Shown here: positions 34,408-54,854 of the stretch, piece after piece | How the letters are laid out: each line of letters starts with the position of its first letter | Position numbering within the stretch: the stretch's first letter is position 1 | The notes under the pieces: generated by a model | What the model was told of the DNA's origin: nothing | Seen by the model: the letters and a program-made list of their open reading frames with translations, nothing else | The model's database searches: none | Position numbers and translations under genes: made by a program | Source: Cubamyces lactineus | Taxonomy: Eukaryota; Basidiomycota; Agaricomycetes; Polyporales; Polyporaceae | Assembly (NCBI GenBank): GCA_022376465.1 | Contig: JACDTU010000027.1 | Location: forward strand, 186,001-250,000 | Direction of reading: 5' to 3' | Length of the DNA stretch: 64,000 bases

Positions 34408-34596
34408 ATGATCATCGCGCTCTTCACCTGCATGACCCTCGGCTACCTCCTTGCCCTTGCCTTCATCGCCACTCACCTGCGCCTCTCCATCAACATCCTC
34501 GAAATTGCTCTCGAACACCGTGACCCTCTCGACCCCGTAAACGACAAGCTTGACCAGGCCGACCGCACCCTCAATAACTCCAGCTGGGACGAGTAG
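34408..34596 (+). CDS. Element A ORF-Y: 62-aa single-pass membrane peptide
   Basis: ATG 5 nt after the ORF-X stop. An N-terminal hydrophobic helix (residues 1-21, MIIALFTCMTLGYLLALAFI) is followed by an amphipathic, acidic helix (NILEIALEHRDPLDPVNDKL). It ends TAG, with the next ATG one base later. Unknown family; a small membrane-anchored protein. Confidence 0.6.
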   Translation: MIIALFTCMTLGYLLALAFIATHLRLSINILEIALEHRDPLDPVNDKLDQADRTLNNSSWDE

Positions 34597-34597
34597 A

Positions 34598-35632
34598 ATG
34601 GGCCGCCCCCTCTATAGCACCCAAGTCGCCGACGACAATGCAAGCGACCAGGAAAACCAACAGCCACTACCCATTCCTCCCCCACTCGCCAGACGCCTCT
34701 CGTCGCCTCCACCGGAATACACCTCTAGGTCACCATCACCCGCCTCCTCGACGTCGGACCTCAGCACGGTTGGTGTCGAAGACTCTCATCTGGTAGACCA
34801 CTCCCGGCACCCCGACGTCAACCAGTTGCTCCGTGCACTCCTCACCAACCCTATCCCAGTCGTCAATGCCACCGAGCGAGGCTTGCAGTACTTCCTTAGA
34901 GAGTATCGATGCCTCTACAACGAACAACGGGAACTGGACGCACTGGAAGGGAACCTTGTTGACGCAGCTGACATCGCAGAGGACGCTCTAGACGCTCTTC
35001 ATGAGGCGTTTGGTGAAGAAGAGGAGCAACGGCAAGTCTCGGACTACGACATCGCAGAACGGCAGGCGCGCGCCCTCGAAAACGTCGGGCACCATGCCCA
35101 CGAGTTACGGAGGTTGGCAAGACACTCTTTGAACACCACTCGACGGCTCGCCTGGACCACACGCACGTGGAGGAACTTCCTCATACAAACATTTGAACTC
35201 CCCGCATTCCGTGCAAGGATGGCGCCACTGGCCTCGGTCATCAACGACGCGGCCCCGCCTCCCGGAGAACTCCCAGCTGCGGCAAGAAGAGTGCCTGGCG
35301 AAGCCCGACGCCAAGGGACCTATCTGCCCTTGTTCCACACCAGAGTCTCCGCAGGAAGCCGCCGGCCCCGTGATCCATCCCCCGACGAGCGTAACGTAAG
35401 AGCTCGAAGAGACACCTCGCCCGCCCCAATGGACGCTTCGCCAGCCCGACCTGAGTCCCCGCCGTCCCTCCACCCTATTGGCCGCAGCTGCCTAGTCTGT
35501 GGGTCGCCCGATCACGAGTACCTGCGGTGCAGAGACTGGCGATGTGTCTGGTGTCGCGCCACCGCTCCTGGCCATCACCCGTGGGAGTGCCCTCTGCGCC
35601 CAGAAGACATGGACGAGTGGTTTACGAGTTGA
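34598..35632 (+). CDS. Element A ORF-Z: 344-aa cysteine-rich protein
   Basis: Starts one base after the ORF-Y stop (TAGAATG). The N-terminal 60 residues are disordered and Pro/Ser-rich. A central helical region follows (about 70-220; LREYRCLYNEQRELDALEGN), then an Arg/Pro/Ser linker, and a C-terminal double zinc-knuckle-like cluster: CLVCGSPDHEYLRCRDW, then CVWCRATAPGHHPWEC. The cluster suggests nucleic-acid binding. It is intact and ends 49 bp before the 3' LTR. Not a known gypsy product to my knowledge. Confidence 0.7.
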   Translation: MGRPLYSTQVADDNASDQENQQPLPIPPPLARRLSSPPPEYTSRSPSPASSTSDLSTVGVEDSHLVDHSRHPDVNQLLRALLTNPIPVVNATERGLQYFLREYRCLYNEQRELDALEGNLVDAADIAEDALDALHEAFGEEEEQRQVSDYDIAERQARALENVGHHAHELRRLARHSLNTTRRLAWTTRTWRNFLIQTFELPAFRARMAPLASVINDAAPPPGELPAAARRVPGEARRQGTYLPLFHTRVSAGSRRPRDPSPDERNVRARRDTSPAPMDASPARPESPPSLHPIGRSCLVCGSPDHEYLRCRDWRCVWCRATAPGHHPWECPLRPEDMDEWFTS

Positions 35633-36630: not shown

Positions 36631-37725
36631 TCACAGCGTACACTCCGGTGTCAACATACCTATAGCTTGGCGGTAAGTTGTCGGAATGTGTTCTGCTTCG
36701 ACCTTGAAGGTAGGAAAATTCCCCCTTCGAGCGATGACATCGTCGATAAGAAGAGAAGCTGCCTTGGTTGTCTTAACTGAAGCCTCCGGCCACCGAAGAT
36801 GGTAGAAAGCCATGATTTGGGTGACTGAAGTGCCGAAGTGTTCGTTAGGGACCATGAAGATGTTGCCATTGTAATTGATGTAACCAAGTAGATCTTCTCT
36901 GGTTCCTCGAAAGAAAATGCATCGTCCATGAGGACCCTCGACATTCTTGAGGAGAGTCGTCAGAGGAGGGGGAGGAGGAGAGGGAGCCCTAACAGCAACC
37001 TTTGAGGGCATCATGGAACTCCTCTTCCAAAAGTTCATCGACGGTGCTGAGCTCAAGATGATCAAGCTCCGGGAGTAAGTCGAAAGACTCGACCTCAGAG
37101 CAAGGTGAGTCGGAACAAGAAGAGACAAGGGAGGGAGTGGACTCCTCAACCGGAGTCAGACCCCACTTGATAGCCTCCTCCTTAGGGTCGGGGGTGGAGA
37201 CCTTCCAAGGGTGTGTCGAGGGAGTGGACCATCCTCCAGAGTGCTCCTCATCCTTGTCTTCATCCTCATCCAAGGAATCCGCTCCAAAAGGCTTCTGGTA
37301 GTCGTCAAGACGCATAGGCCAGAAAACATGTCCTCAGTTCTGGGTACTATGCTGGTTGCGAAGCGGCATGACATCCGAGAGAATGAGAGAACCCCTGTGA
37401 TTTGGGGGTTAGCAAGCATAGACATGACTTTCTCTGCCGCATGGATCACCACTTGGTAGGCCTTGCTCATGACCTGAACTACCTTTTTCTCGAACTTGGG
37501 CACTGGCGTTCTCTTGTTGTACTTGAGGAGAACAGCATATGAGGGAGTAGCCCTAGTCAGAGCGCGGTAGACATCAATGAGGTCCTTGACCTCAGGGAGA
37601 TGGGAGACCCTAGCCTCGACATGGCTGTAGAGGTTGGGATGGACGATAACCCAGCCAGTACGATCAGCGAGGGTACCTTCATCGTGAATAGAGACCATGT
37701 GTTGGGAAAGATGATTGTAGAACAC
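36631..37725 (-). pseudogene. Element B internal ORFs, unknown retroelement protein
   Basis: Three overlapping minus-strand open stretches (37,725-37,156; 37,315-36,989; 37,149-36,631) read as one protein split by frame changes or introns. Visible features are a basic helical N-terminal part (KFEKKVVQVMSKAYQVV), an acidic Ser/Pro-rich middle (SCSDSPCSEVESFDLL) and a C-terminal part with GPHGRCIFFRGTREDLLGYI. No protease, RT or integrase motif. It resembles the cargo of a non-autonomous LTR element; I do not recognise the family. Confidence 0.4.
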
Positions 37726-40759: not shown

Positions 40760-40951
40760 TGTTGAACTTCCAGGTTATCGGCTGTGCCGGACCGGGAATG
40801 TGGACCTTGTGGCTGTGGCGCCTACAACGCGCACAGCATGGACTTTATTCCTTTTATGGACTGCTCAGTGTACGTACTGTAGTTGGACATTCTTTCATTC
40901 CCTCCATCTTTCCGTTGTGTTCTACACTGCTACGGATCCTTCCAGAGGGTT
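40760..40951 (+). repeat. Element C 5' LTR, first part
   Basis: TGTTGAACTTCCAGG... up to the GGGTT target site of element D. The rest is at 49,269-49,616. Confidence 0.9.
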
Positions 40952-41644
40952 TGTTACGCTCCGTGCTGTAACCCCGAAGCCCGATCCCCGAACCCCCGTA
41001 CCCCGCTCCTTACTCCGCGTTACGTACTCCGTTCCTCCGTACTCCGCTCTTCCGTACCCCGTACCCCCGACTCCGTTCTCCGTACTCCGCACTTCGTACT
41101 CCGTACTTCGGACTTCCCCCGACCCCATGACTTACATGTCTCAGATAACCCCTCATGGCGCTACCTACATGAGGCTTTTGCTTACTGAGCTATCTACGTT
41201 ATCTTACCCTTGGCAAGTTACTTCGTACTTTCGTTCTACTCCTTCCTATCACGTACATCTCTTATTGTTTCTATCGGGTTTCTGACTTAGTATAAATACT
41301 GCCCCGGAATGTAGTAGCTACTCAGTTCGGAAATCTCGTTATACCCATTACAGGTTCAACTCGTAGTCCTACACTCAACCCCGACCCTCTAGTCCGACCA
41401 ACCTTCGTTCCCTTCCTACCAACCCCTTCAACCCAACCCCGTTCCCAAGTCCGACCTTCGTCCCGTCAAGTCCGTACTCCGAAGTCCGCAAATAGAGGAC
41501 ACCGAGTCGGAACCCGTGCGTTACTAATAGTTTCGCGAAAGTCCTCACCCCAGTGCTAGTCCGACCTCCGGTCGTACTCCGACCCCGAACTCCGTCCAAG
41601 TCCCGACCACCGGAGTTGTACCCCCGGACGGCACGGTCCTAACA
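40952..41644 (+). repeat. 5' LTR of element D (693 bp)
   Basis: TGTTACGCTCCGTGC...GGTCCTAACA. By hand count about 17 CCG triplets lie in 40,970-41,125, nearly all on one strand, many as CCG-N4-CCG (CCGTACTCCG). Confidence 0.95.
41291..41298 (+). promoter_or_regulatory. TATA box of element D LTR
   Basis: TATAAATA, 33 bp before AGTTCGGAAAT (41,324-41,334), which matches the primer-binding site in complement. The RNA 5' end is predicted at about 41,323. Confidence 0.7.
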
Positions 41645-41646
41645 GT

Positions 41647-41657
41647 ATTTCCGAACT
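41647..41657 (+). other. Self-primer binding site of element D
   Basis: ATTTCCGAACT, two bases after the LTR end, is the exact 11-nt reverse complement of AGTTCGGAAAT at 41,324-41,334, just where the transcript should begin. Confidence 0.75.
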
Positions 41658-41675
41658 CACCGGGTTTCACTCAAT

Positions 41676-43145
41676 ATGTCCACTCGAACCGTAGTCCGCA
41701 CTCAGACGCAATCTCGCGCCCTAGAGCAAGAAGACCCCGCCGAGAACTGGAGTGGCTGGACAGCTCGCCGAGGCGACTCAGCGACGCAAGAAGAAGCTAC
41801 TCCGAGCCGCCGCGGGCAGTTCGCTCGAACAATCGTCGAAGCGTCCTCCGATGGGGACGACGAAGGTGACCCGCCTCAGCCTCTGGTCATCTCTACCGCG
41901 ACTGCCTCGCAGGTACCCCGCGAGCCATCTCCGGGGAACCCGTTCTCCGAGGGTCAGCCTTCAGGTCCGAGCCGCGGGCCTCCAGGTCCGCCTAGTCCTC
42001 CAGGTCCGCCGGGCCCTCCAGGACCGCCAGGTCCTCCGGACAACGACCCACAAGGGCCGGGAGACGACGACACTAGCTCAAGCTCGGACTCCTCCGACTC
42101 CGAAGACCGGGTTCAGTCGCAACTAGCGACCGCGATCTCTCTCATCGCGCGTACCCTCGAACGTACTACCGCTCCAACTCCGGCGGTTACCCAACCTTCG
42201 AACAACGAGCGGCACAACGTCCGCGAGCCGGACCAGTTCGACGGGTCCGACCCCAACAAACTCCGGTCTTTCTTCACGCAGTTGGAACTTGTCTTCAAGG
42301 CCCGACCCCGAACCTTCGACTCCGATGAGAAGAAGGTGACCTACGCCATCTCCTTCCTCAAGGGCACCGCGCTACAGTGGTTCGAGCCCTACCTCCTCGA
42401 AGGCGACTCGGACAACCCCCCCATCTTCCTTACATCCTACGACCACTTCCAGGAGGAACTCCGAGTGAACTTCGGTCCTTACGACGCCTCCGGAGCTGCG
42501 GAGCATGAGCTGATGAACCTCCGGATGGGCGACAACCAGCGGATAGCTAAGTACATCACTCAGTTCACCCGCCTCGCTACTCAAGTCCGTTGGGGTAATG
42601 CTCCGCTCCGGTACCGGTTCTACGACGGACTTCCGAACCGTCTCAAGGACCGCATCTCCGAGGTCGGCAAGCCCGAGACCCTGGTGGCCCTTCGCGACCT
42701 CGCGCAGTCGATCGACAACCGCTACTGGGAGCGCAAGGCCGAGGTCTCGCGCGAGTCCGGACCTTCGAAGTCCGGTAACAAGTCGACCTCCGACTCCAAG
42801 TCCTCCAACTCCGGCAACAAGTCCGGAGGTAACAACTCCGGACAGGCCTCCTCGTCTACCCCGTCCAAGTCCGGCAATTCCGGTACTTCGTCGAAGTCTC
42901 CTAAGACTCCGAAGACCCCGGCCAAGACGTACACCGACAAGCTCGGTAAGGACGGAAAACTCACCCCCGAGGAGCGTCAACGCCGTTTCGCCAACAATCT
43001 CTGTCTCTTCTGCGGTGGAGCTGGTCATACCGCGAGTGCTTGTCCGAAGAAGACCTCGTCCGCGACTAAGGGTCGCGCCGCTCAAGCCAACCCCGCTCCC
43101 GCTGCGCCCGCTCCGGCTGCAGCCCCGAAGGAGACAAAAAATTAG
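41676..43145 (+). CDS. gag: Element D gag
   Basis: 489 aa; ATG 31 bp after the LTR. N-terminal disordered part with a collagen-like Gly-Pro-Pro run (about residues 105-130), the gag core (about 170-330: REPDQFDGSDPNKLRSFFTQ, AEHELMNLRMGDNQRIAKYI), a Ser/Lys-rich linker and a zinc knuckle CLFCGGAGHTASAC (about residue 447). Ends ACA AAA AAT TAG; the A_AAA_AAT heptamer sits directly before the stop. Confidence 0.93.
   Translation: MSTRTVVRTQTQSRALEQEDPAENWSGWTARRGDSATQEEATPSRRGQFARTIVEASSDGDDEGDPPQPLVISTATASQVPREPSPGNPFSEGQPSGPSRGPPGPPSPPGPPGPPGPPGPPDNDPQGPGDDDTSSSSDSSDSEDRVQSQLATAISLIARTLERTTAPTPAVTQPSNNERHNVREPDQFDGSDPNKLRSFFTQLELVFKARPRTFDSDEKKVTYAISFLKGTALQWFEPYLLEGDSDNPPIFLTSYDHFQEELRVNFGPYDASGAAEHELMNLRMGDNQRIAKYITQFTRLATQVRWGNAPLRYRFYDGLPNRLKDRISEVGKPETLVALRDLAQSIDNRYWERKAEVSRESGPSKSGNKSTSDSKSSNSGNKSGGNNSGQASSSTPSKSGNSGTSSKSPKTPKTPAKTYTDKLGKDGKLTPEERQRRFANNLCLFCGGAGHTASACPKKTSSATKGRAAQANPAPAAPAPAAAPKETKN
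43136..43142 (+). other. -1 frameshift heptamer A_AAA_AAT, element D
   Basis: Six A and one T in the gag frame followed by TAG (43,143-43,145). A -1 slip leads into the pol frame, open from here to 46,867. Confidence 0.65.
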
Positions 43146-46100
43146 TCCGCGGTCCTCCGAACTCCGTACCCCGTGAGGACCGCGTTGACTCCTCCGGTAC
43201 GGAGATCCTCAGGCTCAACGCGTCCGCTCTTTCCGACCCCCATGCACTCTTCCTCGACTTGTACTCCGATCCTATCCCAACTCCGTTCCGCGCCCTTATC
43301 GACTCCGGTTCCTCCCATTGTTTCATCGACTCCGATTTCGCGACTATGTATCAACTCCCAACTACCGCCGTAACCCCGCTCCGTCTACAGCTTTTTGACG
43401 GTACTTCTAACCACCTGATTACTTTGTTTACCACTCTGCCCGTACATTTCCCGTCTGGAGAAGTCCTCAATATAGATTTCTATGTTACTCCGCTCGACAA
43501 GTCCGTGTCTGCCGTTCTGGGATACAGCTGGCTCTCCGCCTACAATCCGTTGATTGACTGGAAGAAGCGCAGCATCCAATTCCGTTCCGCACCCCCGCCG
43601 CGTCCTGTTTCTGACACCATGGTACCCCCGCCAGCTCCGGCTGAGCGTACTCCGTCTACTCCGTCTACTCCGGCTACTCCGGAACTACCGACTTCTCCTA
43701 CTCCGACCTCCGTACCCCGGATCTCCCTTGTGAACGCTGCTGCTTTCGCTCGGGCTTGCAAACTCCCGGGGTCCGCGAGCTATACCCTGAACCTGTCTAC
43801 CCCGGACTTGGCTACTGCGCGGAGTTCGTCCATCCCCGACTCTCCCCCGGACCTCACCGGAGTTCCGGAGGAGTACCACGAGTTTGCGGACGTCTTCAGC
43901 AAGACCAAGGCCGACATCCTACCGGAGCATCGCCCCTACGACTTAAAGATCGACCTGGAAGAAGGGGCTACTCCGCCACTCGGACCTATTTACTCCCTCT
44001 CAAAACTCGAGCTCGACACGCTTCGGGAGTATATTGACGAGAACCTCCGATCGGGGTTCATACGTCCGTCCAACTCTCCCTGCGGAGCTCCCGTCCTCTT
44101 CGTCAAAAAGAAGGACGGATCTCTTCGCCTTTGCGTGGACTACCGGGGCTTGAATAAGATCACCCGGAAGGACCGCTACCCCCTTCCTCTCGTCTCGGAC
44201 TTGCTGGACGCGCCTCGGAAGGCCCGGATCTATACCAAAATCGACCTCCGTCACGCCTACAACCTAGTCCGCATAGCTCCCGGAGATGAGTGGAAGACCG
44301 CGTTTCGGACCCGCTATGGGTCTTTCGAATGGTTAGTCATGCCGTTCGGACTTTCTAACGCGCCCGCTGCTTTCCAGCGGTTCGTCAATGACATCTTCGC
44401 GGACATGCTCGATGTGTGCGTCATCGTCTACCTGGACGACATCCTCATCTACTCCGACAACCTCGAGCAACACCGCAAGCACGTCAAAGAGGTACTCCGG
44501 CGACTCCGCAAGCACCGGCTTTATGCCCGCGCTGACAAGTGCGAGTTCCACACCGACTCCGTCGAGTACCTCGGTTACATCCTCTCTCCCACCGGACTCA
44601 CCATGGCGGAGTCGAAGGTTAAGGCGATCTTGGATTGGCCCGAACCCCGGAAGGTCCGCGACATACAGTCGTTCCTGGGGTTCGCGAACTTCTATCGACG
44701 GTTTATTCCAAACTACTCCGAGATCGTACTACCGCTGACCCGCTTAACCCGCAAGTCCGTGCCTTGGCACTTCTCCGAGGAATGTCGGAGTTCGTTTAAC
44801 GCTCTCAAGAAGGCGTTCACGACAGCTCCGGTACTACACCACTGGATGCCCGACCGACCCCTCACCGTCGAGACTGACGCCTCGGACTACGCCATCGCCG
44901 GCATTCTCTCCCTTACCACCGAGTCCGGTGAACTCCACCCCATTGCCTTCCACTCCCGCACCTTGACCGGCGCGGAGTTGAACTACGACACCCACGACAA
45001 GGAACTCCTCGCGATCTTCGAATGTTTCAAGACCTGGCGGCACTACCTCGAAGGTTCGGCAACCCCGATCGACGTTGTCACGGACCACAAGAATTTGGTA
45101 TACTTCGCGACTACGAAGTTACTGACCCGCCGTCAAGCCCGATGGTCGGAGTTCCTCTCGCAGTTCAACCTCGTAGTCCGGTTCCGGCCAGGTAAGCTTG
45201 GAGCGAAGCCCGACGCACTGACACGCCGTTGGGACGTCTACCCAAAAGAGGGGGGCAGTGACTACTCCGTCGTCAACCCACACAACTACCGACCGGTTTT
45301 CACCCAGGAGCAGCTCGCCGCGTCCCTCCGGGCTACCTACCTCCGACCCCCCGTACTCCGAGCTTCCTTCGTCCTCGACTCCGAACAACTCCTCTCGGAC
45401 ATCAAGTCCGCTCAAGCAACCCCGACTCCTGACCCCGAACTATCTGCTGCACTCAAGCTCGCCTCCGAAGGTAACTCCCGATGGTCCCGCGATGAAGACG
45501 GGCTACTCCGACTCTCAGGTCGAGTCTATGTCCCGAACTCCGGCGACCTCCGCCTTCGCGTACTCCGAGCTTGTCACGACCACCCTACTGCCGGACACTG
45601 GGGACAGAACAAGACGCAAGCCCTGGTCCTGCGGGACTACGCCTGGCCCGGACTTCGACTCTTCGTCCGGGACTATTGTAAGTCCTGTACTACCTGTGCG
45701 CGAGCTAAAGTCCCCCGGCATCTCCCCTACGGTACTTTGAAGCAACTCCCGATCCCCGAGCGACCCTGGAACTCCATCTCCATGGACCTCATCGAGCAAC
45801 TCCCGAACTCCGCTGGCTACACCGCGATCTTGGTGGTAGTCGACAGGCTCACTAAGCAAGGTATATTCATCCCTACCCACGACACGCTTACAGCCTCGGA
45901 GTTAGCGGACTTGTTCGTACTCCATGTGTTCTCCAAGCACGGAGTTCCCTCGCACGTTACCTCCGACCGGGGCTCGGAGTTCGTCTCTCACTTCTTCCGC
46001 TCCCTCGGTAAGGCCCTCGACATGCGCCTTCACTTCACCTCCGGTTACCACCCGGAAGGCGACGGTCAAACCGAGCGGGTTAACCAGACCCTCGAGCAGT

Positions 46101-46867
46101 ACCTCCGGATCTATTCGAACTACCAGCAGGACAACTGGTCCCAACTCCTTCCCTTGGCGGAGTTCGCGTACAACAATGCTCCGTCCGCAACTACCGGTAT
46201 ATCCCCGTTCTTCGCGAACAAGGGCTACAACCCCGCCATCTCCGTCTACCCCGAGCGGGACCTCACCTCCGCTCGAGCTCGCGACTACGCTGTCGACCTC
46301 GACGAACTTCACACCCAACTCCGACAGCAGATCGCCGAAGCCCAGGCCCGGTACCAAGTACAGGCGGACAAACACCGTCTACCCGCGCCGGACTTCAAGG
46401 TCGGAGATCAGGTCTATGTCCGAGCTCAGCACATCCGGACTACTCGTCCCTCCAAAAAGTTGTCCGAGAAGTTCTTAGGTCCGTTCACTATCATCGCGCA
46501 GGTCGGAACTCACTCCTTCACCCTCCGACTACCGGACTCTATGCGCGCGGTACACCCCGTTTTCCATGTCTCACAACTCGAGCCTGCAACTCCGAACACC
46601 ATCCCCGGCCGCGTCCAAACTCCGCCACCTCCGATCCTGGTGGACGGAGAACCGGAGTACGAGATTTCGGAGATCCTCGACTCCAAGATTGACCGCCGGC
46701 GTCGGAGTTGTCAACTCCTGTACCTAGTCCGATGGGCAGGCTACGAAGGTACGGACGAAGAAACTTCGTGGATCTTGGCCACGGAGCTCGGACATGCCCA
46801 GGAGCTAGTTTCGGACTTCCACGCAGCTTACCCGGACAAGCCCGGACCTCTTGCTAAATTGTCTTGA
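43145..46867 (+). CDS. pol: Element D pol: PR, RT, RNase H, integrase, chromodomain
   Basis: Open frame in -1 to gag; first in-frame ATG is doubtful (43,259 or a frameshift product). About 1,240 aa. Protease ALIDSGSSHCFIDSDFA, VLGYSWL. RT PSNSPCGAPVLFVKKKDG, VIVYLDDILIYSDN. RNase H VETDASDYAIAGIL. Integrase zinc finger (CHDHPTAGHWGQNKT...CTTC), core MDLIEQLP, SDRGSEF, QTLEQYLRI. Chromodomain-like end EISEILDSKIDRRRR...YLVRWAGYEG. No stop or frameshift inside. Ends 107 bp before the convergent antisense gene. Confidence 0.95.
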   Translation, partial: VRGPPNSVPREDRVDSSGTEILRLNASALSDPHALFLDLYSDPIPTPFRALIDSGSSHCFIDSDFATMYQLPTTAVTPLRLQLFDGTSNHLITLFTTLPVHFPSGEVLNIDFYVTPLDKSVSAVLGYSWLSAYNPLIDWKKRSIQFRSAPPPRPVSDTMVPPPAPAERTPSTPSTPATPELPTSPTPTSVPRISLVNAAAFARACKLPGSASYTLNLSTPDLATARSSSIPDSPPDLTGVPEEYHEFADVFSKTKADILPEHRPYDLKIDLEEGATPPLGPIYSLSKLELDTLREYIDENLRSGFIRPSNSPCGAPVLFVKKKDGSLRLCVDYRGLNKITRKDRYPLPLVSDLLDAPRKARIYTKIDLRHAYNLVRIAPGDEWKTAFRTRYGSFEWLVMPFGLSNAPAAFQRFVNDIFADMLDVCVIVYLDDILIYSDNLEQHRKHVKEVLRRLRKHRLYARADKCEFHTDSVEYLGYILSPTGLTMAESKVKAILDWPEPRKVRDIQSFLGFANFYRRFIPNYSEIVLPLTRLTRKSVPWHFSEECRSSFNALKKAFTTAPVLHHWMPDRPLTVETDASDYAIAGILSLTTESGELHPIAFHSRTLTGAELNYDTHDKELLAIFECFKTWRHYLEGSATPIDVVTDHKNLVYFATTKLLTRRQARWSEFLSQFNLVVRFRPGKLGAKPDALTRRWDVYPKEGGSDYSVVNPHNYRPVFTQEQLAASLRATYLRPPVLRASFVLDSEQLLSDIKSAQATPTPDPELSAALKLASEGNSRWSRDEDGLLRLSGRVYVPNSGDLRLRVLRACHDHPTAGHWGQNKTQALVLRDYAWPGLRLFVRDYCKSCTTCARAKVPRHLPYGTLKQLPIPERPWNSISMDLIEQLPNSAGYTAILVVVDRLTKQGIFIPTHDTLTASELADLFVLHVFSKHGVPSHVTSDRGSEFVSHFFRSLGKALDMRLHFTSGYHPEGDGQTERVNQTLEQYLRIYSNYQQDNWSQLLPLAEFAYNNAPSATTGISPFFANKGYNPAISVYPERDLTSARARDYAVDLDELHTQLRQQIAEAQARYQVQADKHRLPAPDFKVGDQVYVRAQHIRTTRPSKKLSEKFLGPFTIIAQVGTHSFTLRLPDSMRAVHPVFHVSQLEPATPNTIPGRVQTPPPPILVDGEPEYEISEILDSKIDRRRRSCQLLYLVRWAGYEGTDEETSWILATELGHAQELVSDFHAAYPDKPGPLAKLS

Positions 46868-46974
46868 AGTTCACACGCGGAGTTCTCACCAGCAGATTTC
46901 TTTCTATACTCCTCCGCACTCGGACTACAAGATACTAGCTACGAAGTCCGAGGTCCGAAGTCCGTACTACCGCC

Positions 46975-48368
46975 CTACTCCGCCATGTCCATGTCCGCCG
47001 GGTCCTCCGGCCCCTTCCCCTCCTTCGCGCCCTCGCCCTGCTCCTCCTCCTCCTCACCGGACTTGCCCCGCGCGGACTTGTCCAACCCCGACCCATTCTC
47101 CTCCTCCCAGTCCGACCCAGCAACCCCCGCCCGCTCCAGCGCGTCCGCGATCGCGTCCTCCTTGTCCTGCGAGGTGATCTCAAGGATCTCCCGCAGCATA
47201 GTCCCGAACTCCGTCGCGAGTTCGGACTTCACCGCCTCGCGGACGGCCTCGCCGATGACGGCCTTCAACTCCTTCCGCACGATCTTGGCGATGGCATCGC
47301 CAAGACCCCGGACCTCCTCCCGCATCATCTCCTCCCGCTGCTCCTCCTCGTCGACCAGCAGGTCGATGACCCGCCCCGCGGTGCGCCGGTTGCGCTGCAC
47401 CGCGACGAGCAGGTGCTCGAGGAGCTCCCGGTCGGAGAGCTTCTCCGGGTCGTCGGACCACCGGAGGTCGGACTTCCCAACCTCTGGAAGTCCGGAGCTG
47501 GCGGACATCCGAGGGCCCGTCGACGAGCCTGCGATGCTCGGGCCTCGGGCGACGACTGTTCGTGCTGGGGGGTTAATTCCGGGTGGCGCGACAAAGGTCC
47601 ATCGGACCTCACCTGGCTGCAGCGGCTTCTCCGCCGCCTTCTCCACCGTCTTCTCCTTCTCCTTCTCCTTCCCCTTGCCCTTCTCCGCCCGCACCTTCTC
47701 CGAACTCCGAACTCCGGTGGGCGCGGGGGTCTCAAACCCGTCGTCGTCGACGACGATGGGGGCGGACTTGACCTTCTTGCGCTGCGGGCTTGGGGCCTCC
47801 TCCTTGCGCGCGATCCGGGCTTGGATGTCCGTGGGAAGTCCGCGGGCCCCGACGCACGCGCGCGACCGAGCTTTCTGGCATTGGACGCAACTCGACGTCC
47901 GTTTGCCCGCGCGGAACCGGCACGCGATTTGCTTCGCGGCGCACCGGTCGCACCTCGTCCTGTGGAACTCCGTTAGTCCGACCCCCGTACTCCGTACCCC
48001 GACCGGACTTACCGCGGGACGAGCAACTCCGCGTCGTCCTCTTCCTCCTCCGACTCCGGCTCCTCGTCCTCCGCGGGACGCTTGCTTCCCCGCGCGGAAG
48101 CCCCGGCCTTCGCGAGGGCAGCCTGGCGGATCAGCGCTGCTGCCTTCTGCGCGGCCTCGTACTCCGCGCGCTCTTTCTCCTCCCGTGCTCGCTCCTCCTC
48201 CGCTTTTCGCGCCCTGTAAACCACCGTTAGCCCGAACTCCGTACTCCGCAACCCCGGCAACCCCGGTACTTACGCTTCGGCTGCTGCGGCCTCCTCCGCC
48301 GCTGCCTTCATCCGGAGCTGCGCAAGGTGCGCCTCCAAAGCCTGAATGTTGTCGAGGGTTGAGGACAT
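46975..48368 (-). CDS. Antisense Zn(II)2Cys6 protein gene inside element D
   Basis: Three exons on the strand opposite to gag-pol: 48,368-48,274, 48,213-48,013, 47,959-46,975, joined by 60- and 53-bp introns with GTAAGT donors, CTAAC branch sites and CAG acceptors; 426 aa, in frame throughout. A TATATAAG box precedes the ATG by about 63 bp. The N-terminus is an Ala/Glu/Lys coiled coil (exons 1-2) and an acidic stretch. Exon 3 opens with C-x2-C-x6-C-x10-C-x2-C-x7-C (TRCDRCAAKQIAC...), exactly the fungal zinc-cluster spacing, with Lys/Arg inside. Then a basic KGKGKEKEKEK run, a helical region (LLEHLLVAVQRNRRTAGRVI) and an acidic C-terminus follow. Likely a DNA-binding regulator carried by the element; function inferred. 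Confidence 0.8.
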
Positions 48369-48430
48369 AGTGCTGGTGGTGGTGGTGGGAGACAAAGAGC
48401 GAGGACGAACCGGCTAAGTCTCACCCCCGT

Positions 48431-48438
48431 CTTATATA
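48431..48438 (-). promoter_or_regulatory. TATA box of the antisense gene
   Basis: TATATAAG on minus, between the gene start (48,368) and the 3' LTR, giving room for a short leader. It supports transcription independent of the LTR promoter. Confidence 0.65.
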
Positions 48439-48575
48439 CACCTTTCTTCATCGATTCTGACCCTGCCCCGATTCTTGATCTCCGTTCCCTGGACTTATCG
48501 GATTACCTTTTTTGGACAGACTTCCATTTCCCTTCACTATAGGCCCTCAAGGGTTCGGGCCTAGGGGGGAGGCAC

Positions 48576-49268
48576 TGTTACGCTCCGTGCTGTAACCCCG
48601 AAGCCCGATCCCCGAACCCCCGTACCCCGCTCCTTACTCCGCGTTACGTACTCCGTTCCTCCGTACTCCGCTCTTCCGTACCCCGTACCCCCGACTCCGT
48701 TCTCCGTACTCCGCACTTCGTACTCCGTACTTCGGACTTCCCCCGACCCCATGACTTACATGTCTCAGATAACCCCTCATGGCGCTACCTACATGAGGCT
48801 TTTGCTTACTGAGCTATCTACGTTATCTTACCCTTGGCAAGTTACTTCGTACTTTCGTTCTACTCCTTCCTATCACGTACATCTCTTATTGTTTCTATCG
48901 GGTTTCTGACTTAGTATAAATACTGCCCCGGAATGTAGTAGCTACTCAGTTCGGAAATCTCGTTATACCCATTACAGGTTCAACTCGTAGTCCTACACTC
49001 AACCCCGACCCTCTAGTCCGACCAACCTTCGTTCCCTTCCTACCAACCCCTTCAACCCAACCCCGTTCCCAAGTCCGACCTTCGTCCCGTCAAGTCCGTA
49101 CTCCGAAGTCCGCAAATAGAGGACACCGAGTCGGAACCCGTGCGTTACTAATAGTTTCGCGAAAGTCCTCACCCCAGTGCTAGTCCGACCTCCGGTCGTA
49201 CTCCGACCCCGAACTCCGTCCAAGTCCCGACCACCGGAGTTGTACCCCCGGACGGCACGGTCCTAACA
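48576..49268 (+). repeat. 3' LTR of element D (693 bp)
   Basis: Same length and, by eye, the same sequence as the 5' LTR. Preceded by the PPT-like AGGGGGGAGGCAC. Confidence 0.95.
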
Positions 49269-49616
49269 GGGTTCTATACCTATGACACCATATGTCGCGA
49301 TACTCGCACCATGGTCTTACTCATCGTACATAGGGATCACATGCCTCCTTTCTTCGCTTACTCATGGCACTCCTCTCTCAGTATATAAGGAGGACATTCT
49401 TCGCCCCTACTCTTCAGTCGTTCGCTCACAGACTGAAGAGTAAGTTCCTTCATTACCTATGCCTTTATATGCAGTTACTTACCAAGTACTTGTAGCTCTC
49501 TTTGTGTCGCTTACAGGTACTTGTATTATGCAATATAGTTGTTCGCTCACAGACTGAAGACTCTCTTTGTGTCGCTTACAGGTCGCTCCCAGCCTTCTAG
49601 GTTCAGAAGTTCATCA
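49269..49616 (+). repeat. Element C 5' LTR, second part
   Basis: Continues GGGTTCTATACC... to TTCATCA. It holds TATATAAG near 49,382 and an extra about 65-bp partly duplicated segment (49,516-49,582) that the 54,866 LTR lacks. Confidence 0.9.
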
Positions 49617-49635: not shown

Positions 49636-50588
49636 TAACTTGTTGCTGCTTCTGTCGACATCTCTGCGCGCACCCTCCCTTCGTCGACATTGCTGTTGTG
49701 CACCCTCCCCTCCATAATTCCTTAACTCTTGACTGTTGCCCGCCGACACTGCTACCAGGGGGACATTTCTGCGCTCGTGACGCAGCCCTGAGTGCTTTTA
49801 CTATAGCCCTAGTACTCAGTAGGCTGTACAGCTCTTTGTAGCGAGCTCTTTCTAGTATCCCTGGGTCAGGCCTCGCACTTGCGACAGCCAGCCCTTGTAT
49901 CCGGGTTCTTTAGGGACTTAGGACCGGAGGACAACTGTCTGGACCCTCCTTACGATACTCTTTTTGTCGGATAGCAGTACATAGTTTTTCTTGGGCACAG
50001 TTGGCAACTTCTACCCAGATTTTCGGGCATTTCGGCTGTCTGGATCTCTGGTTCTCCTGAACAGGTGTTCCCATCTACCAGGACTTCTCGGTGCACACAG
50101 CAAGTCAATCATCGCGCTTTTTCTGAACCGTTTTGGAGCCGACCACAGCGGAACCTCTTGCCATAGACTCTGAGGAGGAAGTCGACGCCACTCTCGACAA
50201 CCCTTCAGAATCATCTGCCTTTGATTGTTCTGGGCTTATCCACTTCTTCGACGTTGACGAGAACCTCGACCGTTACTACGACCCAGAAGACGACAGCTAC
50301 TTTGCTTGCGATAGCTTCCCCTGTCCTAATCGCTACCAGAACCTTCAAGAGCCTCCACCCGGTAACCTCTGGGCTGTAGTCCCAGAACCTTGGCAAGTTA
50401 CTCCGCTTCCTCCTTCTTCGACAGAAGAAGAAGACGACCTAGAATCAGTCTACGAGCTTTCACCTCTCCTTGCTCCCACACCCCTTCCTCCGGACGCGCC
50501 TCTCCAATTCGCGCCTCCACAATCTCCACCTCCTACACTCGATCTAACTGAAAATCTCGTCGATTCGCCCCAATTCTTTCTCCTCACT
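49636..50588 (+). other. Leader of element C with an ATG-less open frame
   Basis: Leader sequence to about 50,126. From there the polyprotein frame is open for about 150 codons up to the first ATG (50,589), with acidic, protein-like content (DSEEEVDATLDNPSESSAFD). Confidence 0.6.
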
Positions 50589-53500
50589 ATGGGCGACATC
50601 AAACCTAAATCTGTCCCTCTCCTTTCTTCGGCCAGCCAGTACGCCGACTGGGCTGCGAAGATGAAGGGTCTTCTCATGTTCATGAACTGCTGGGATGTAG
50701 TCTCTTCAGAGATGACTGAACCTTCCGACGCTGAAGAGCGCAAGGAGTATAGGAAGAAGAATGCTCAGGCATGGGGTCTGCTCTTCATGCGGACTGGGCC
50801 TAGCTTCCACTATCTCCTCGAGACGAAGACGACCAACGGCACCTCCTCTCCGGCCAATCTCACTGCCAAAGAGATGTGGGATGCGCTGAAAGACAAGTTT
50901 GGGAAACCGAACTCTGCGCACGTTTGGGGTCTCTTCGAGTCGCTCATCAGCGAGTCTCGCATGTCAGACCAGCGTTCGCTTCAGGATCAGATGAGTCGGA
51001 TTGTCACGCGTATCCGCGAGATCTCGACCAACGGCCTGAAGTTAGAGGACAACATCCAGGCCCTCATCCTTCTCTCCAAGGTCCCGGAGTCCTACCGACC
51101 TATGATCTCTGCGCTCATGGCCACTATGGACCTCGACAAGATCACCGTCGACGTCATCCTCGAGAAGTCTCTCTCTGAGGAAGCCATGCGCAAGACCGGT
51201 CAGTCCGCTGCTCGGATCTCCAAGACCAAGCCCAAGCTGTCCGGCCCCTGCGACTTCTGTGGCAGTCAGACCCATCATGAGTCGACTTGCTACAAGAAGC
51301 ACCCCGAGCTTCGCCCCAAGGGCAACAAGGGTAAGGGCAACGGTGGCAAGAAGAAGGACAAGGACAAGGAGAAGGACAAAGGGAAGGGAAAGGACAATTC
51401 TCATGACCATGCGCACGTCTCGGCCAATGTACTTGTAGCTGAATCCGGCTCTAACATGCACGCTTCTTTCTATGATGCGGCGAAAGCTGCTGCTGGTGTG
51501 CGGTATACTCGTTGGCTGATGGACTCTGGCGCATCTCAGCACGTCACTTGGTGCTTTGACGACTTCACCGAGTATGAACCCTTCGACAAACCGCTGACCT
51601 TCAATACCGCCTCATCTGGTGAAGGTTCGGTTATTCAGGGACTCGGTCAAGGCACTGTTAAAGCTGAGACTCTTGTTGATGGTCAACGGTGGACTATCAC
51701 TCTTCCGAACGTCTGCTATGTGCCTCAGGCCTCTGCACGACTGTTCTCCACCGATACCATTGAGAAGAATGGTTATTCTCTCTTCCAAGGAGCGAGAAAG
51801 ATGATGATCTTCGACAAGCAGCCGGAAGGCGCTGTCGACTCAGGCTCGACGATTCGCATCAAGGGTCGAAAGATCCTTGAGGCACCGTACAATCCTGCGA
51901 GCAATCTCTATGATTTGACTCTGGAGATTATCCTGAACAGGCATGTCCACCTAAACGTTCGCAGTTACAAGACTTGGCATCGTCGCTTTGGTCATGCAGG
52001 CAAGGAGCCTCTTCGCCACCTGCCTAAGAACGTAAAGGGTGTTGACCAGCTTGATCCCGCGGATGACGAACCGTGTGAGGGTTGTGCCTTTGGCAAATCC
52101 CACAGACTCCCTTTCCTGCCATCAGAAAAGCGTGCGACTGAGCCCCTTGAGCTCGTCCACACTGATCTTGATGGGCCAATGCGCACTGCGTCAGTTGGCA
52201 GCGGATTCAAGTACTTCGCTAGCTTCATTGATGATTACTCCGGTCTCGCCCGTGCTTACTTCCTGAAGTACAAGTTGGATGCCTTCAAAGCGTTCAAGGA
52301 CTTCAAGGCTTGGGCCGAGAATCAAACCGGGAGGAAAATCAAGCGAGTCCGCTCTGATCGTGGTGGGGAGTACACGTCAAATGAGTTCTCCGAGCTTCTC
52401 TGCAGTTTAGGGATTGAGCACCACAAAACCATGCCTGATTCGCCTCAGCAGAATGGACGCGCTGAACGCTGGAACCGTACAATCACTGAAAAGGCTCTGT
52501 CTATGCTTCATCATGCTGGACTTAGTCACGGTTTCTGGCAACTCACTATTGAGGCAGCCGTTCATATCTATAATCGTCAGCCTATGCGTCGCCTGAAATG
52601 GCGATGTCCCATCACTCTGTGGGATGGGACCATCCCTGATGTGTCCTATTTCCGCGTTTTTGGCTGCAAAGCCTATGTTCACGTGCAAAAGGACAAGCGC
52701 AAAGGGAAACTTGACAAGAAGGCTGTCGAGATGATCTTTGTCGGGTATGAGCAGGGTTCCAAGGGGTATAAATTTTGGAACACAGCTACCCACTCTATTA
52801 TTGTATCTCGCGATGTGATCTTTGACGAAGAGTCTTTTCCTGCACATAAGATTCCTGGCAATCATCCTGTTACCCCAGACGATAGTCTGTTCTCAGATCA
52901 AGAAGTCCCTTCAGACGACGCCTCCAATGCTGAGCCTGAAAACTTCGAGATTGATATCCCTCTTCTTATTTCTCTCCCAGAGGTCGCGCCTCCTGCACCT
53001 CCTGCACCTACAGAGCAACCTGCTCCCCCTCCTCCGCAACAACCTGATCCACCACCTGCTGTTCCTCCACCGCGACCTAACCATCAGCGGAATCGTCATG
53101 AGCCAGTGGGAGGTCCTAGCATAGCGCGTGATCGCCCTCGTCGCGAGAACATTCCTAGACCTCAGCGCTACAGGGACAGCGTGTACGGTGATGAGCCACC
53201 TGCAAAGGTTGATGCTCGTACTGATGCGGAAGGGAACTTGGAGGACGATGAACAAGTTGTACAGTCTATCATTGCAATGCTCGCCGCCGCAACCCATAAG
53301 CCTGGCATTCCTAACTCTCATCGACAAGCCATGGCATCTCCAGATGCGGAGAAGTGGCGTGCAGCTGAGAAGGCAGAGTACGACTCACTCATTGAGAACA
53401 AGACCTGGCTTCTTGTGCCTAGGCCAAAGAACCGACAAGTCGTCGCCAATCGTTGGGTGTATGACATCAAGCATGATGGTCGGTACAAGGCTCGTCTTGT

Positions 53501-54854
53501 GGCCAAGGGTTTTACTCAGGTCTGGGGGGAGGATTACAATGAAACCTTTTCGCCTGTTGCGCGTTTTGAGTCGATTCGTTACCTCCTCGCGCACGCTGCG
53601 CTTGAGGACTGGGACATCGAGTCGATGGATGTCAAAACTGCGTTCTTGAACGGCGACTTGGAGGAGGAGATCTACATGGAACAGCCTGAGGGCTGGGTTG
53701 TTCCTGGCAAGGAAAACTTCGTGTGTCTATTGCTGAAAGCTATCTACGGCTTGAAGCAGGCGTCTCGTCAATGGAACGCCAAGATACACCAAATCTTGCT
53801 AGATCTGGGATTCATACGGACATACTCTGATGCCGGAGTCTACGTATATCGGCGACATAGGGGGGATTCCGTCACGATCATTGTTCTGTATGTTGACGAT
53901 CTACTCCTCATGGGTGACAAGCCTGGCCATATCAAGGCTACCAAGGAGGCCTTGATGCAGCGGTTCAAGATGACAGATCTGGGTCCTGTCTCGCGTTTTC
54001 TCGGTCTGAACATTGTTCGCGATCGTAAAGCTCGAACGATCGACATCGACCAGATAGACTACATCCAGTCCGTTCTCGAACGTTTTGACATGGCCGACTG
54101 CAAGCCGGCTCGCACTCCTCTCCCTGCTGGTGCTGTACTGGAGAAATCTAGTCACACCGCCGCCGATCACTCCCGGAAACGGTACCAGAGCCTAATTGGC
54201 AGTCTGCTCTATGCGACTTTGGGTACACGTTCGGATATCTCCTTCGCGGTCCAGAAGTTGTCTCAGTACAACTCTAATCCTAGTGACGCACACTGGAACT
54301 ATGCCAAGTATGTTCTGCGGTACCTGCAAGGGACCAAAGACTACCGGTTGCGTTACTTTGGTTCCTCGAATGACGGTCTTTTGGGTTATTCAGACTCGGA
54401 CTGGGCTGAGGACCGTGATGACCGCAGGTCCACTGGAGCTTACGTCTTCTTGATGGCGGGCGGCGCTATTTCCTGGCAGTCTAGGAAACAGCCGACTGTT
54501 TCACTCTCCTCGACCGAGGCGGAATACAAGGCTGCATCAGACGCTTGTCGTCAAGTTGTATGGCTTCGCACGTTTGGTGAAGAGTTGGGGGACGACATCT
54601 CTCGTCCTACACCTTTGTGTCTCGACAACCAAGGGTCCATCTTCTTATCGGTTAATCCCGTCACCGAGCGTCGCACGAAGCACGTCGACGTCCAGTACCA
54701 CTACACTCGCAAACAAGCTGAGTTAGGGACGATCGACATCTTCTACGTAGCGACAGAGGATCAACTAGCTGATTCCTTGACGAAGAATGTCTCCTTCTCT
54801 ATATTGGAGCGCTTCAGAAAGGCGATTGGTCTAGTCTCTCCCTCCGCAGTTTGA
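50589..54854 (+). CDS. Element C gag-pol polyprotein (Ty1/copia)
   Basis: One open frame of 1,421 aa from the first ATG (the frame is open from about 50,127). Order is copia-type: gag (MWDALKDKFGKPNSAHVWGL), zinc knuckle CDFCGSQTHHESTC, protease WLMDSGASQHVTW, integrase zinc finger (HRRFGH...CEGCAFGK) and core (DLDGPMRT, DRGGEY, NGRAERWNRT), RT (AFLNGDLEEEIYMEQPEGW, YVDDLLLMGD), RNase H (SDSDWAEDRDDRRSTGAYVF, SLSSTEAEYKA). All catalytic acids are visible and no stop interrupts. Integrase before RT separates it from the gypsy elements. Confidence 0.95.
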   Translation: MGDIKPKSVPLLSSASQYADWAAKMKGLLMFMNCWDVVSSEMTEPSDAEERKEYRKKNAQAWGLLFMRTGPSFHYLLETKTTNGTSSPANLTAKEMWDALKDKFGKPNSAHVWGLFESLISESRMSDQRSLQDQMSRIVTRIREISTNGLKLEDNIQALILLSKVPESYRPMISALMATMDLDKITVDVILEKSLSEEAMRKTGQSAARISKTKPKLSGPCDFCGSQTHHESTCYKKHPELRPKGNKGKGNGGKKKDKDKEKDKGKGKDNSHDHAHVSANVLVAESGSNMHASFYDAAKAAAGVRYTRWLMDSGASQHVTWCFDDFTEYEPFDKPLTFNTASSGEGSVIQGLGQGTVKAETLVDGQRWTITLPNVCYVPQASARLFSTDTIEKNGYSLFQGARKMMIFDKQPEGAVDSGSTIRIKGRKILEAPYNPASNLYDLTLEIILNRHVHLNVRSYKTWHRRFGHAGKEPLRHLPKNVKGVDQLDPADDEPCEGCAFGKSHRLPFLPSEKRATEPLELVHTDLDGPMRTASVGSGFKYFASFIDDYSGLARAYFLKYKLDAFKAFKDFKAWAENQTGRKIKRVRSDRGGEYTSNEFSELLCSLGIEHHKTMPDSPQQNGRAERWNRTITEKALSMLHHAGLSHGFWQLTIEAAVHIYNRQPMRRLKWRCPITLWDGTIPDVSYFRVFGCKAYVHVQKDKRKGKLDKKAVEMIFVGYEQGSKGYKFWNTATHSIIVSRDVIFDEESFPAHKIPGNHPVTPDDSLFSDQEVPSDDASNAEPENFEIDIPLLISLPEVAPPAPPAPTEQPAPPPPQQPDPPPAVPPPRPNHQRNRHEPVGGPSIARDRPRRENIPRPQRYRDSVYGDEPPAKVDARTDAEGNLEDDEQVVQSIIAMLAAATHKPGIPNSHRQAMASPDAEKWRAAEKAEYDSLIENKTWLLVPRPKNRQVVANRWVYDIKHDGRYKARLVAKGFTQVWGEDYNETFSPVARFESIRYLLAHAALEDWDIESMDVKTAFLNGDLEEEIYMEQPEGWVVPGKENFVCLLLKAIYGLKQASRQWNAKIHQILLDLGFIRTYSDAGVYVYRRHRGDSVTIIVLYVDDLLLMGDKPGHIKATKEALMQRFKMTDLGPVSRFLGLNIVRDRKARTIDIDQIDYIQSVLERFDMADCKPARTPLPAGAVLEKSSHTAADHSRKRYQSLIGSLLYATLGTRSDISFAVQKLSQYNSNPSDAHWNYAKYVLRYLQGTKDYRLRYFGSSNDGLLGYSDSDWAEDRDDRRSTGAYVFLMAGGAISWQSRKQPTVSLSSTEAEYKAASDACRQVVWLRTFGEELGDDISRPTPLCLDNQGSIFLSVNPVTERRTKHVDVQYHYTRKQAELGTIDIFYVATEDQLADSLTKNVSFSILERFRKAIGLVSPSAV

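Follow-up and report, generated by a model that had tools for sequence, protein, structure and literature searches.

A spliced antisense gene for a Zn2Cys6-like protein and an element-wide motif field in a gypsy chromovirus of Cubamyces lactineus

The element and its antisense gene

The window, that is the whole stretch of 64,000 nucleotides of Cubamyces lactineus DNA that was analysed, contains at 40952-49268 a Ty3/gypsy chromovirus element, in which gag, pol, an antisense gene and a polypurine-like tract lie between two LTRs (Table 1). As expected for this class, the LTRs have TG...CA ends, the target-site duplication is short, RT and RNase H precede the integrase and a chromodomain stands at the C-terminus of pol. 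Specifically, protease, RT, RNase H, integrase and chromodomain are each recognised by at least one Pfam model above cut-off, including RVT_1 (282-442), RT_RNaseH (531-636), rve (835-932) and Chromo (1134-1188). In conclusion, the element carrying the antisense gene is a young Ty3/gypsy chromovirus. The window also holds an intact-looking copia-type gag-pol ORF of 1573 aa (50133-54854), which served as a control, and two direct-repeat pairs, 36119-36418/37891-38190 (89 %) and 39867-39933/40691-40757 (84 %), possibly representing LTRs of other insertions.

Table 1. Features of the element and of its antisense gene (positions in the window)
Feature	Position	Strand	Remarks
5' target-site duplication, GGGTT	40947..40951	.	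flank reading; same 5 bp after 3' LTR
5' LTR, 693 bp, TGTTA...TAACA	40952..41644	+	identical to 3' LTR over 694 bp
Motif field, 132 sites of [AT]A[CG][TC]CCG / CGG[AG][CG]T[AT]	40952..48575	.	
gag ORF, 489 aa	41676..43145	+	matched in related copies
pol ORF, 1202 aa: protease, RT, RNase H, integrase, chromodomain	43259..46867	+	Pfam
Antisense gene, 426 aa, Zn2Cys6-like	46975..48368	-	ATG at 48368, TAG at 46977-46975
Exon 3, 985 nt	46975..47959	-	
Long C-terminal helix, residues about 290-375 (predicted)	47131..47388	-	AlphaFold2 model of P0009, helix 191-276, block pLDDT 78-97
Six-cysteine cluster C-x2-C-x6-C-x10-C-x2-C-x7-C, residues 102-134	47854..47952	-	
Intron 2, 53 bp	47960..48012	-	53-55 bp among 33 copies; 5 motif sites
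Exon 2, 201 nt	48013..48213	-	
Intron 1, 60 bp	48214..48273	-	51-61 bp among 33 copies; 5 motif sites
Exon 1, 95 nt	48274..48368	-	
Motif-free stretch, 302 bp: exon 1, antisense promoter, PPT side	48274..48575	.	0 sites; neighbouring gene parts 10-94 per kb
TATATAAG box of antisense gene	48431..48438	-	70 bp upstream of ATG; 32/33 copies
Polypurine tract-like AGGGGGGAGGCAC	48563..48575	+	direct reading; role inferred from position
3' LTR, 693 bp	48576..49268	+	LTR comparison
3' target-site duplication, GGGTT	49269..49273	.	flank reading

The minus-strand gene (48368-46975) consists of three exons with a spliced frame of 1281 nt, 426 codons followed by TAG, and both of its introns have the form GTAAGT...CTAAC...CAG. 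An earlier note on this DNA had described such a gene, and a new reading of the sequence returned the same coordinates, introns (48273-48214 and 48012-47960), number of codons and cysteine spacing; the upstream box that it had reported, TATATAAG at 48438-48431, recurs in all but one of the 33 aligned copies. In addition, a plus-strand ORF of 461 aa (46985-48370), absent from that note, overlaps the same DNA.

The cysteines of the cluster are the sole six of the antisense protein, and they fit the spacing of Zn2Cys6 regulators, CX2CX6CX5-12CX2CX6-8C. Fifteen protein relatives (P0001-P0008 and P0010-P0016) come from Cubamyces sp., Trametes cubensis, T. sanguinea, T. coccinea, T. cinnabarina, Pilatotrama ljubarskyi and one ENA record; the six-cysteine pattern is complete in six of them (P0002, P0003, P0004, P0006, P0010 and P0011), the remaining nine being short, partial or having lost cysteines. 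All six cysteines are invariant in a seven-row alignment whose rows were chosen for having the pattern, and the first two vary in a ten-row alignment including others. Pfam Zn_clus gave no match to the antisense protein of the window, and P0004 scored 13.4 against a cut-off of 21 bits; searched up to E = 1, Pfam returned for the antisense protein no other regulator domain, no bZIP and no DUF1985/DUF287 match. When the cluster model was compared with the PDB, four of the five rows, all weak matches, were Zn2Cys6 DNA-binding domains (Gal4 once and three chains of one Leu3 entry), and the likewise weak VIA entries were PPR1, HAP1 (two) and 1cld. The antisense protein shares the six-cysteine spacing of the fungal regulators Gal4, Leu3, PPR1 and HAP1, which are its best though weak fold matches, and differs from them in lacking a Zn_clus match and in being encoded in a retroelement. 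Since the Pfam Zn_clus cut-off is not reached, we call the protein Zn2Cys6-like only; the Zn(II)2Cys6 identity is thus weaker than the earlier note had stated, being based on the cysteine spacing, its presence in six of the 15 homologues and the weak fold matches. As to the remainder of the protein, the modelled C-terminal helix suggests a dimer-forming coiled coil.

Residence in the element, splicing and selection

A search with the RT yielded 46 matches of at least 94 % identity, which constitute the family of the element, set apart by a clean gap from the 50-57 % of other gypsy elements; the search scored 150 of 280 candidates, and 20 of the 46 loci were read at length. Searching the 36.3-Mb genome at the DNA level with the gene gave 42 matches (40 scored of 64 candidates), and among the matches listed 17 showed 100 % identity or close to it along the entire gene and the remainder 84-94 %. 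In agreement with the earlier note, which had placed the gene in a gypsy element between pol and the 3' LTR, it lies between pol and an LTR in 20 of 20 long stretches, the window's own included, with both LTRs seen in 17. The flanks of copies L023 and L024 match, and the two may represent a single insertion site present on two contigs. Moreover, all 40 scored pol 3' ends (of 58 candidates) have the antisense gene adjoining on the opposite strand, whole or partial. For this comparison the main gene pieces were used, many exon-1 and overlapping-frame pieces being left out; the gene-piece search scored 98 of 138 candidates, and 20 pieces given to the comparison, partly examined, had no scored pol end adjoining.

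At seven hand-picked loci of other gypsy elements (RT about 51-57 %), which may represent fewer than seven families, and at one in the window, no ORF of at least 120 codons with such a cluster was found after pol. Some of these other elements (L046, L047, L048 and window about 34540-35630; RT about 51-53 %) have, after pol, a sense ORF that measures some 360-490 codons between stops, and similar pieces are seen by eye on the minus strand at 36631-37725.

In conclusion, the antisense gene is a resident, element-borne gene. That it is a captured host regulator, or a plain passenger without a role in the element, appears very unlikely to us. Zn2Cys6 genes are common in fungi, the homologues carry the annotation 'hypothetical protein' in Trametes, Cubamyces and Pilatotrama and are known here as protein records alone, and a free-standing host copy may be among the 20 pieces without a scored pol end; nevertheless, the gene stands at every scored pol end and is under selection as strong as that on gag and pol, as reported below.

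The copies also record events within the family. A young copy has inserted within the antisense gene of an older one (L024 8917-9794 and 292-600; L023 8750-9058), and the common context on the two contigs may go back to a duplication or to double assembly of one site. L028 is a mosaic, with a gag-pol 99.4-100 % identical to that of the window copy and an antisense gene of just 90-93 % identity; here a young gag-pol is joined, near the pol/gene junction, to the antisense gene of another subfamily. L011 is a mosaic copy too. From these two copies we infer that template switching may swap the antisense cassette among subfamilies.

Splicing signals are kept throughout the 33 aligned copies. The donor is GTAAGT in all of them for intron 1 and in 32 for intron 2, CTAA is present for each intron in all 33, and AG closes intron 1 in 32 and intron 2 in 33. 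The frame is intact in 22 of the 33 copies, including 7 of the 16 diverged ones, and in intact copies the exon lengths differ in steps of three (exon 2: +3, +15, +18 or +36; exon 3: -12 to +12), with intron 1 measuring 51, 52, 60 or 61 bp, out of threes (59 also occurs in others). Annotated proteins of other species span both splice junctions; the alignment is loose around the first, and the second is crossed in register (LLVP-R|TRCDRC in the window, SLVVP-TKKCNRC in P0002), so that intron 2 is independently, though indirectly, supported.

The dN/dS comparison across copies that the earlier note had proposed was carried out on seven intact copies (L009, L026, L028, L029, L032, L033 and L034), leaving out 14 intact near-identical copies, the intact L027 and 11 non-intact ones. 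Omega of the antisense gene was 0.06-0.18 in 20 of 21 pairs, with third positions dominating the changes; the outlier, 0.44, comes from L028-L032, the two copies least diverged from each other (dS 0.044). Residues 98-145, the cluster region, are the most constrained (pN/pS 0.045). For comparison, omega was 0.04 (L026), 0.08 (L027) and 0.11 (L049) for pol, 0.05 (L026) and 0.08 (L027) for gag, and 0.22-0.23 in the gag/pol comparison of the mosaic L011; the values of L028 (0.33 and 1.00, from a handful of changes) were set aside because its gag and pol are nearly identical to the window's. Therefore, the antisense gene is under purifying selection as strong as that on gag and pol of the same copies. 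Absence or random breakage of the frame in other copies, which the earlier note had said would speak against its claim, is thus not what the family displays.

Two further readings bear on these data. The plus-strand ORF of 461 aa could be a real env-like gene with the antisense frame as its shadow, and this frame still reaches about codon 460 in 4 of the 16 diverged copies; however, a stop occurs by codon 330 in nine of the 16, including L028, L032 and L034 with their intact antisense frames, and the start is GTG in six. The early stops contradict a conserved plus-strand gene, and we give the env-like reading next to no credence. Alternatively, the antisense RNA alone might matter, through dsRNA or siRNA regulation, the protein being incidental; antisense transcripts are indeed proposed as regulators of several retroelements in the consulted part of PMC7264820, but the purifying selection acts at the protein level, the splice sites are preserved and the same cysteine pattern exists in other species, and we regard an RNA-only role as highly improbable.

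A field of CGG-containing sites across the element

CGG is the classic Zn2Cys6 half-site. When CGG half-sites were sought, A[CG]TCCG and its complement were found to saturate the whole element, coding parts included, and this element-wide motif, the most informative feature of all, is absent from the earlier note. In the element the context around CGG is CGG-A-(G/C)-T-(T/A), a preference without counterpart in 36 kb of control DNA. Per 1-kb bin, A[CG]TCCG occurs 13-18 times in bins 41001-48001, 9 times in the 3'-LTR bin 49001 and 0-3 times elsewhere in the window. Sites of the longer form (Table 1) number 30 per kb in the LTR (21 in the 5' LTR, 40952-41645), 11 in gag, 17 in pol (62 sites), 37 in the pol-gene gap, 14 in exon 3 and 10 in exon 2, and the introns, with 83 and 94 per kb, are among the densest parts. 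From -119 to 0 of the antisense gene there are no sites in any of the 33 copies, and exon 1 has none or one. Outside the element, seven longer-form sites lie in bin 61001-62000.

To quantify this density, synonymous codons were shuffled: pol has 56 sites against 14.7 in the shuffles (sd 3.2, maximum 23 of 300), gag 17 against 7.3 and exon 3 12 against 4.2, compared with 9 against 5.3 in the copia control. Because the shuffles give far fewer sites, neither the protein sequence nor codon usage can explain the density; the pol sites occupy all three frames and both strands. At the seven loci of other gypsy elements the count is 0-4 sites per 1.5 kb, so one short motif, rare elsewhere, is densely carried by this element family. 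Genome-wide, 1989 close site pairs were counted, compared with 172 when the pattern was written backwards (among the pair places listed, all on contig 1, four were isolated by eye and the others clustered), and 81 tandem doubles of the motif against 35. The strongest 7-mers reach z 11.4-12.8 in the window blocks holding most of the element, against 5.1-7.9 in blocks without element body; a counterexample is the gypsy locus L048, where TGCACAG, in 9 copies mostly within two local arrays, has z 13. The TGCACAG arrays (L048 1987-2043 and 3637-3693; L047 1991-2046) are perhaps an LTR element of another gypsy family.

The fate of the sites in diverged copies was assessed by simulation, re-dealing the substitutions to positions matched for base change, codon position, CpG class and synonymy. 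Diverged copies hold more longer-form sites than simulated in 21 of 22 comparisons, with z values of 2.1-3.9 for exon 3, 2.0-2.6 for the LTR, 0.2-1.8 for pol and -0.2 to 1.5 for gag. At four-fold sites, 12 of 140 changed inside motifs against 212 of 1209 outside, summed over six non-independent copies; the change is lower inside motifs in all six, with a difference that is clear in L026, L029, L033 and L034, small in L032 and barely visible in L028. Site density is 4.5 per kb in a decayed relative, compared with 15.4-22.5 in 13 diverged copies. In conclusion, diverged copies tend to keep the motif sites, in tests which are not independent because the copies are related.

The motif might have nothing to do with the antisense protein, being a code for RNA packaging, export or folding, or the legacy of a heptamer repeat expansion, with the protein doing another job. 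The strand bias in the LTR (19:2) and gag (15:1), the peaks in the distance between sites of one strand, which at 7 and 14 bp match tandem repeats of TACTCCG, and the short heptamer arrays of L048 agree with this explanation. It sits less well with the occurrence of both orientations in pol (38:24) and exon 3 (7:7), with the involvement of three pol frames under the codon-shuffle control, with the density in the introns of the antisense gene and with the tendency of diverged copies to retain sites. All together, we consider an unrelated motif rather unlikely.

Candidate self-recognition and related systems

The data presented above are compatible with the following scenario. Transcription of the mRNA would start from the TATATAAG promoter, immediately internal to the 3' LTR, and run against the direction of the genomic RNA; because of this opposite direction the antisense introns would survive retrotransposition, a reasoning of the earlier note that we judge sound. 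The zinc-cluster protein, dimerised via its long C-terminal helix, would return to the nucleus and bind many CGG-containing sites across the element, LTR and introns being among the densest and the promoter of its own gene being without sites. Such dense binding would mark and control the element's own copies. Its most likely effect would be to keep them open against host silencing and to support LTR transcription, in a VANC-like manner; alternatively, the same binding might restrain sense transcription, in an HBZ-like manner. In the anti-silencing case, the opposing force would be the CpG methylation of basidiomycetes. Precedent for transposon-borne epigenetic countermeasures is provided by fungal DNA transposons encoding a TET/JBP dioxygenase, according to the part of PMC12730594 consulted.

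By analogy with VANC of VANDAL21 and HBZ of HTLV-1, we give about an even chance to the proposal that the zinc-cluster protein of the resident antisense gene recognises its own element via the CGG sites and controls its copies, most likely by anti-silencing. With less confidence, and leaning slightly to doubt, we propose an LTR retrotransposon with a self-recognition of its own, probably serving anti-silencing, in which a spliced antisense factor and about 130 sites, including those within the gag, pol and factor frames, would allow copies to be told from host DNA. To our knowledge, such self-recognition would be the first outside the plant VANDALs and the first in a retroelement.

VANDAL21 of Arabidopsis is a Mutator-like DNA transposon. 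As described in the consulted parts of PMC5735166 and PMC10398659, the motif of its own sequence-specific DNA-binding protein VANC21 is highly enriched in its own element, in one orientation and also in the VANC21 introns, and, in PMC5735166, is dense in its own family, rare in other TEs and partly tandem. VANC21 differs in that it does not belong to a retroelement. Its sites are mainly non-coding, it carries DUF1985/DUF287, and binding and methylation loss have been shown experimentally. In the element described here, the carrier is a retroelement and the sites fill coding DNA too; since the antisense protein has no DUF1985/DUF287 match, we do not file it as a VANC homologue.

In contrast to anti-silencing, the antisense protein (and RNA) could act as a brake, binding LTR sites or partners, damping gag-pol and limiting copy number. 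The LTR sites are dense, at 30 per kb, and this reading does not account for the sites spread over gag, pol and the coding exons of the antisense gene. We know of no element-wide site field for HBZ or HTLV-1. The layout resembles that of HTLV-1 hbz, a spliced antisense gene on the 3' side encoding a nuclear factor with feedback on LTR transcription (PMC10186651, consulted in part), but HBZ, on the same partial source, is a bZIP protein of a retrovirus with its promoter inside the 3' LTR, and no bZIP match was obtained here. We consider such a brake unlikely.

The earlier note took a retroelement with its own fungal-type transcription factor in antisense to be, to its author's knowledge, undescribed among gypsy elements, a novelty that is not supported. 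Antisense genes between pol and the 3' LTR have been described in plant Retand, Grande and RIRE2 (PMC7264820, PMC11963269, both consulted in part), and another antisense gene is brtn of Botrytis. Specifically, the plant aORF-3R genes (Retand TRP28, maize Grande gene23 and rice RIRE2) occupy the same position and are kept in most copies, with an own promoter in Grande and a nuclear or DNA-binding product proposed, in the same parts of the two papers; the gene described here agrees in position, on the opposite strand between pol and the 3' LTR, in every long stretch and at every scored pol end. The differences, as far as these parts go, are that the carriers are plant elements, that Retand is a non-chromovirus and that TRP28 stands against the six-cysteine cluster found here. 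The texts consulted also contain no match for 'intron', whereas introns are present here, and PMC7264820, in its consulted part, calls the functions of plant gypsy antisense genes unknown. Among fungi, the Boty-like elements of Botrytis cinerea are retroelements with a chromodomain and an 'additional antisense gene brtn', according to the title of Zhao 2011 and the part of PMC4227169 consulted; they belong to an ascomycete host, and brtn is likened here by description only.

In conclusion, the architecture is of a known kind, an antisense aORF; new are the type of product, the introns and the element-wide field of putative targets. Should the protein bind the motif, the codons of a whole retroelement would have been shaped by one short DNA word, and control or anti-silencing of an autonomous, family-specific kind, otherwise known to us only from the Arabidopsis VANDALs, would have evolved in a retroelement. 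In addition, the proposal, if true, would give the antisense genes of gypsy elements a testable role and would supply a compact DNA-binding module whose natural target array counts about 130 sites.
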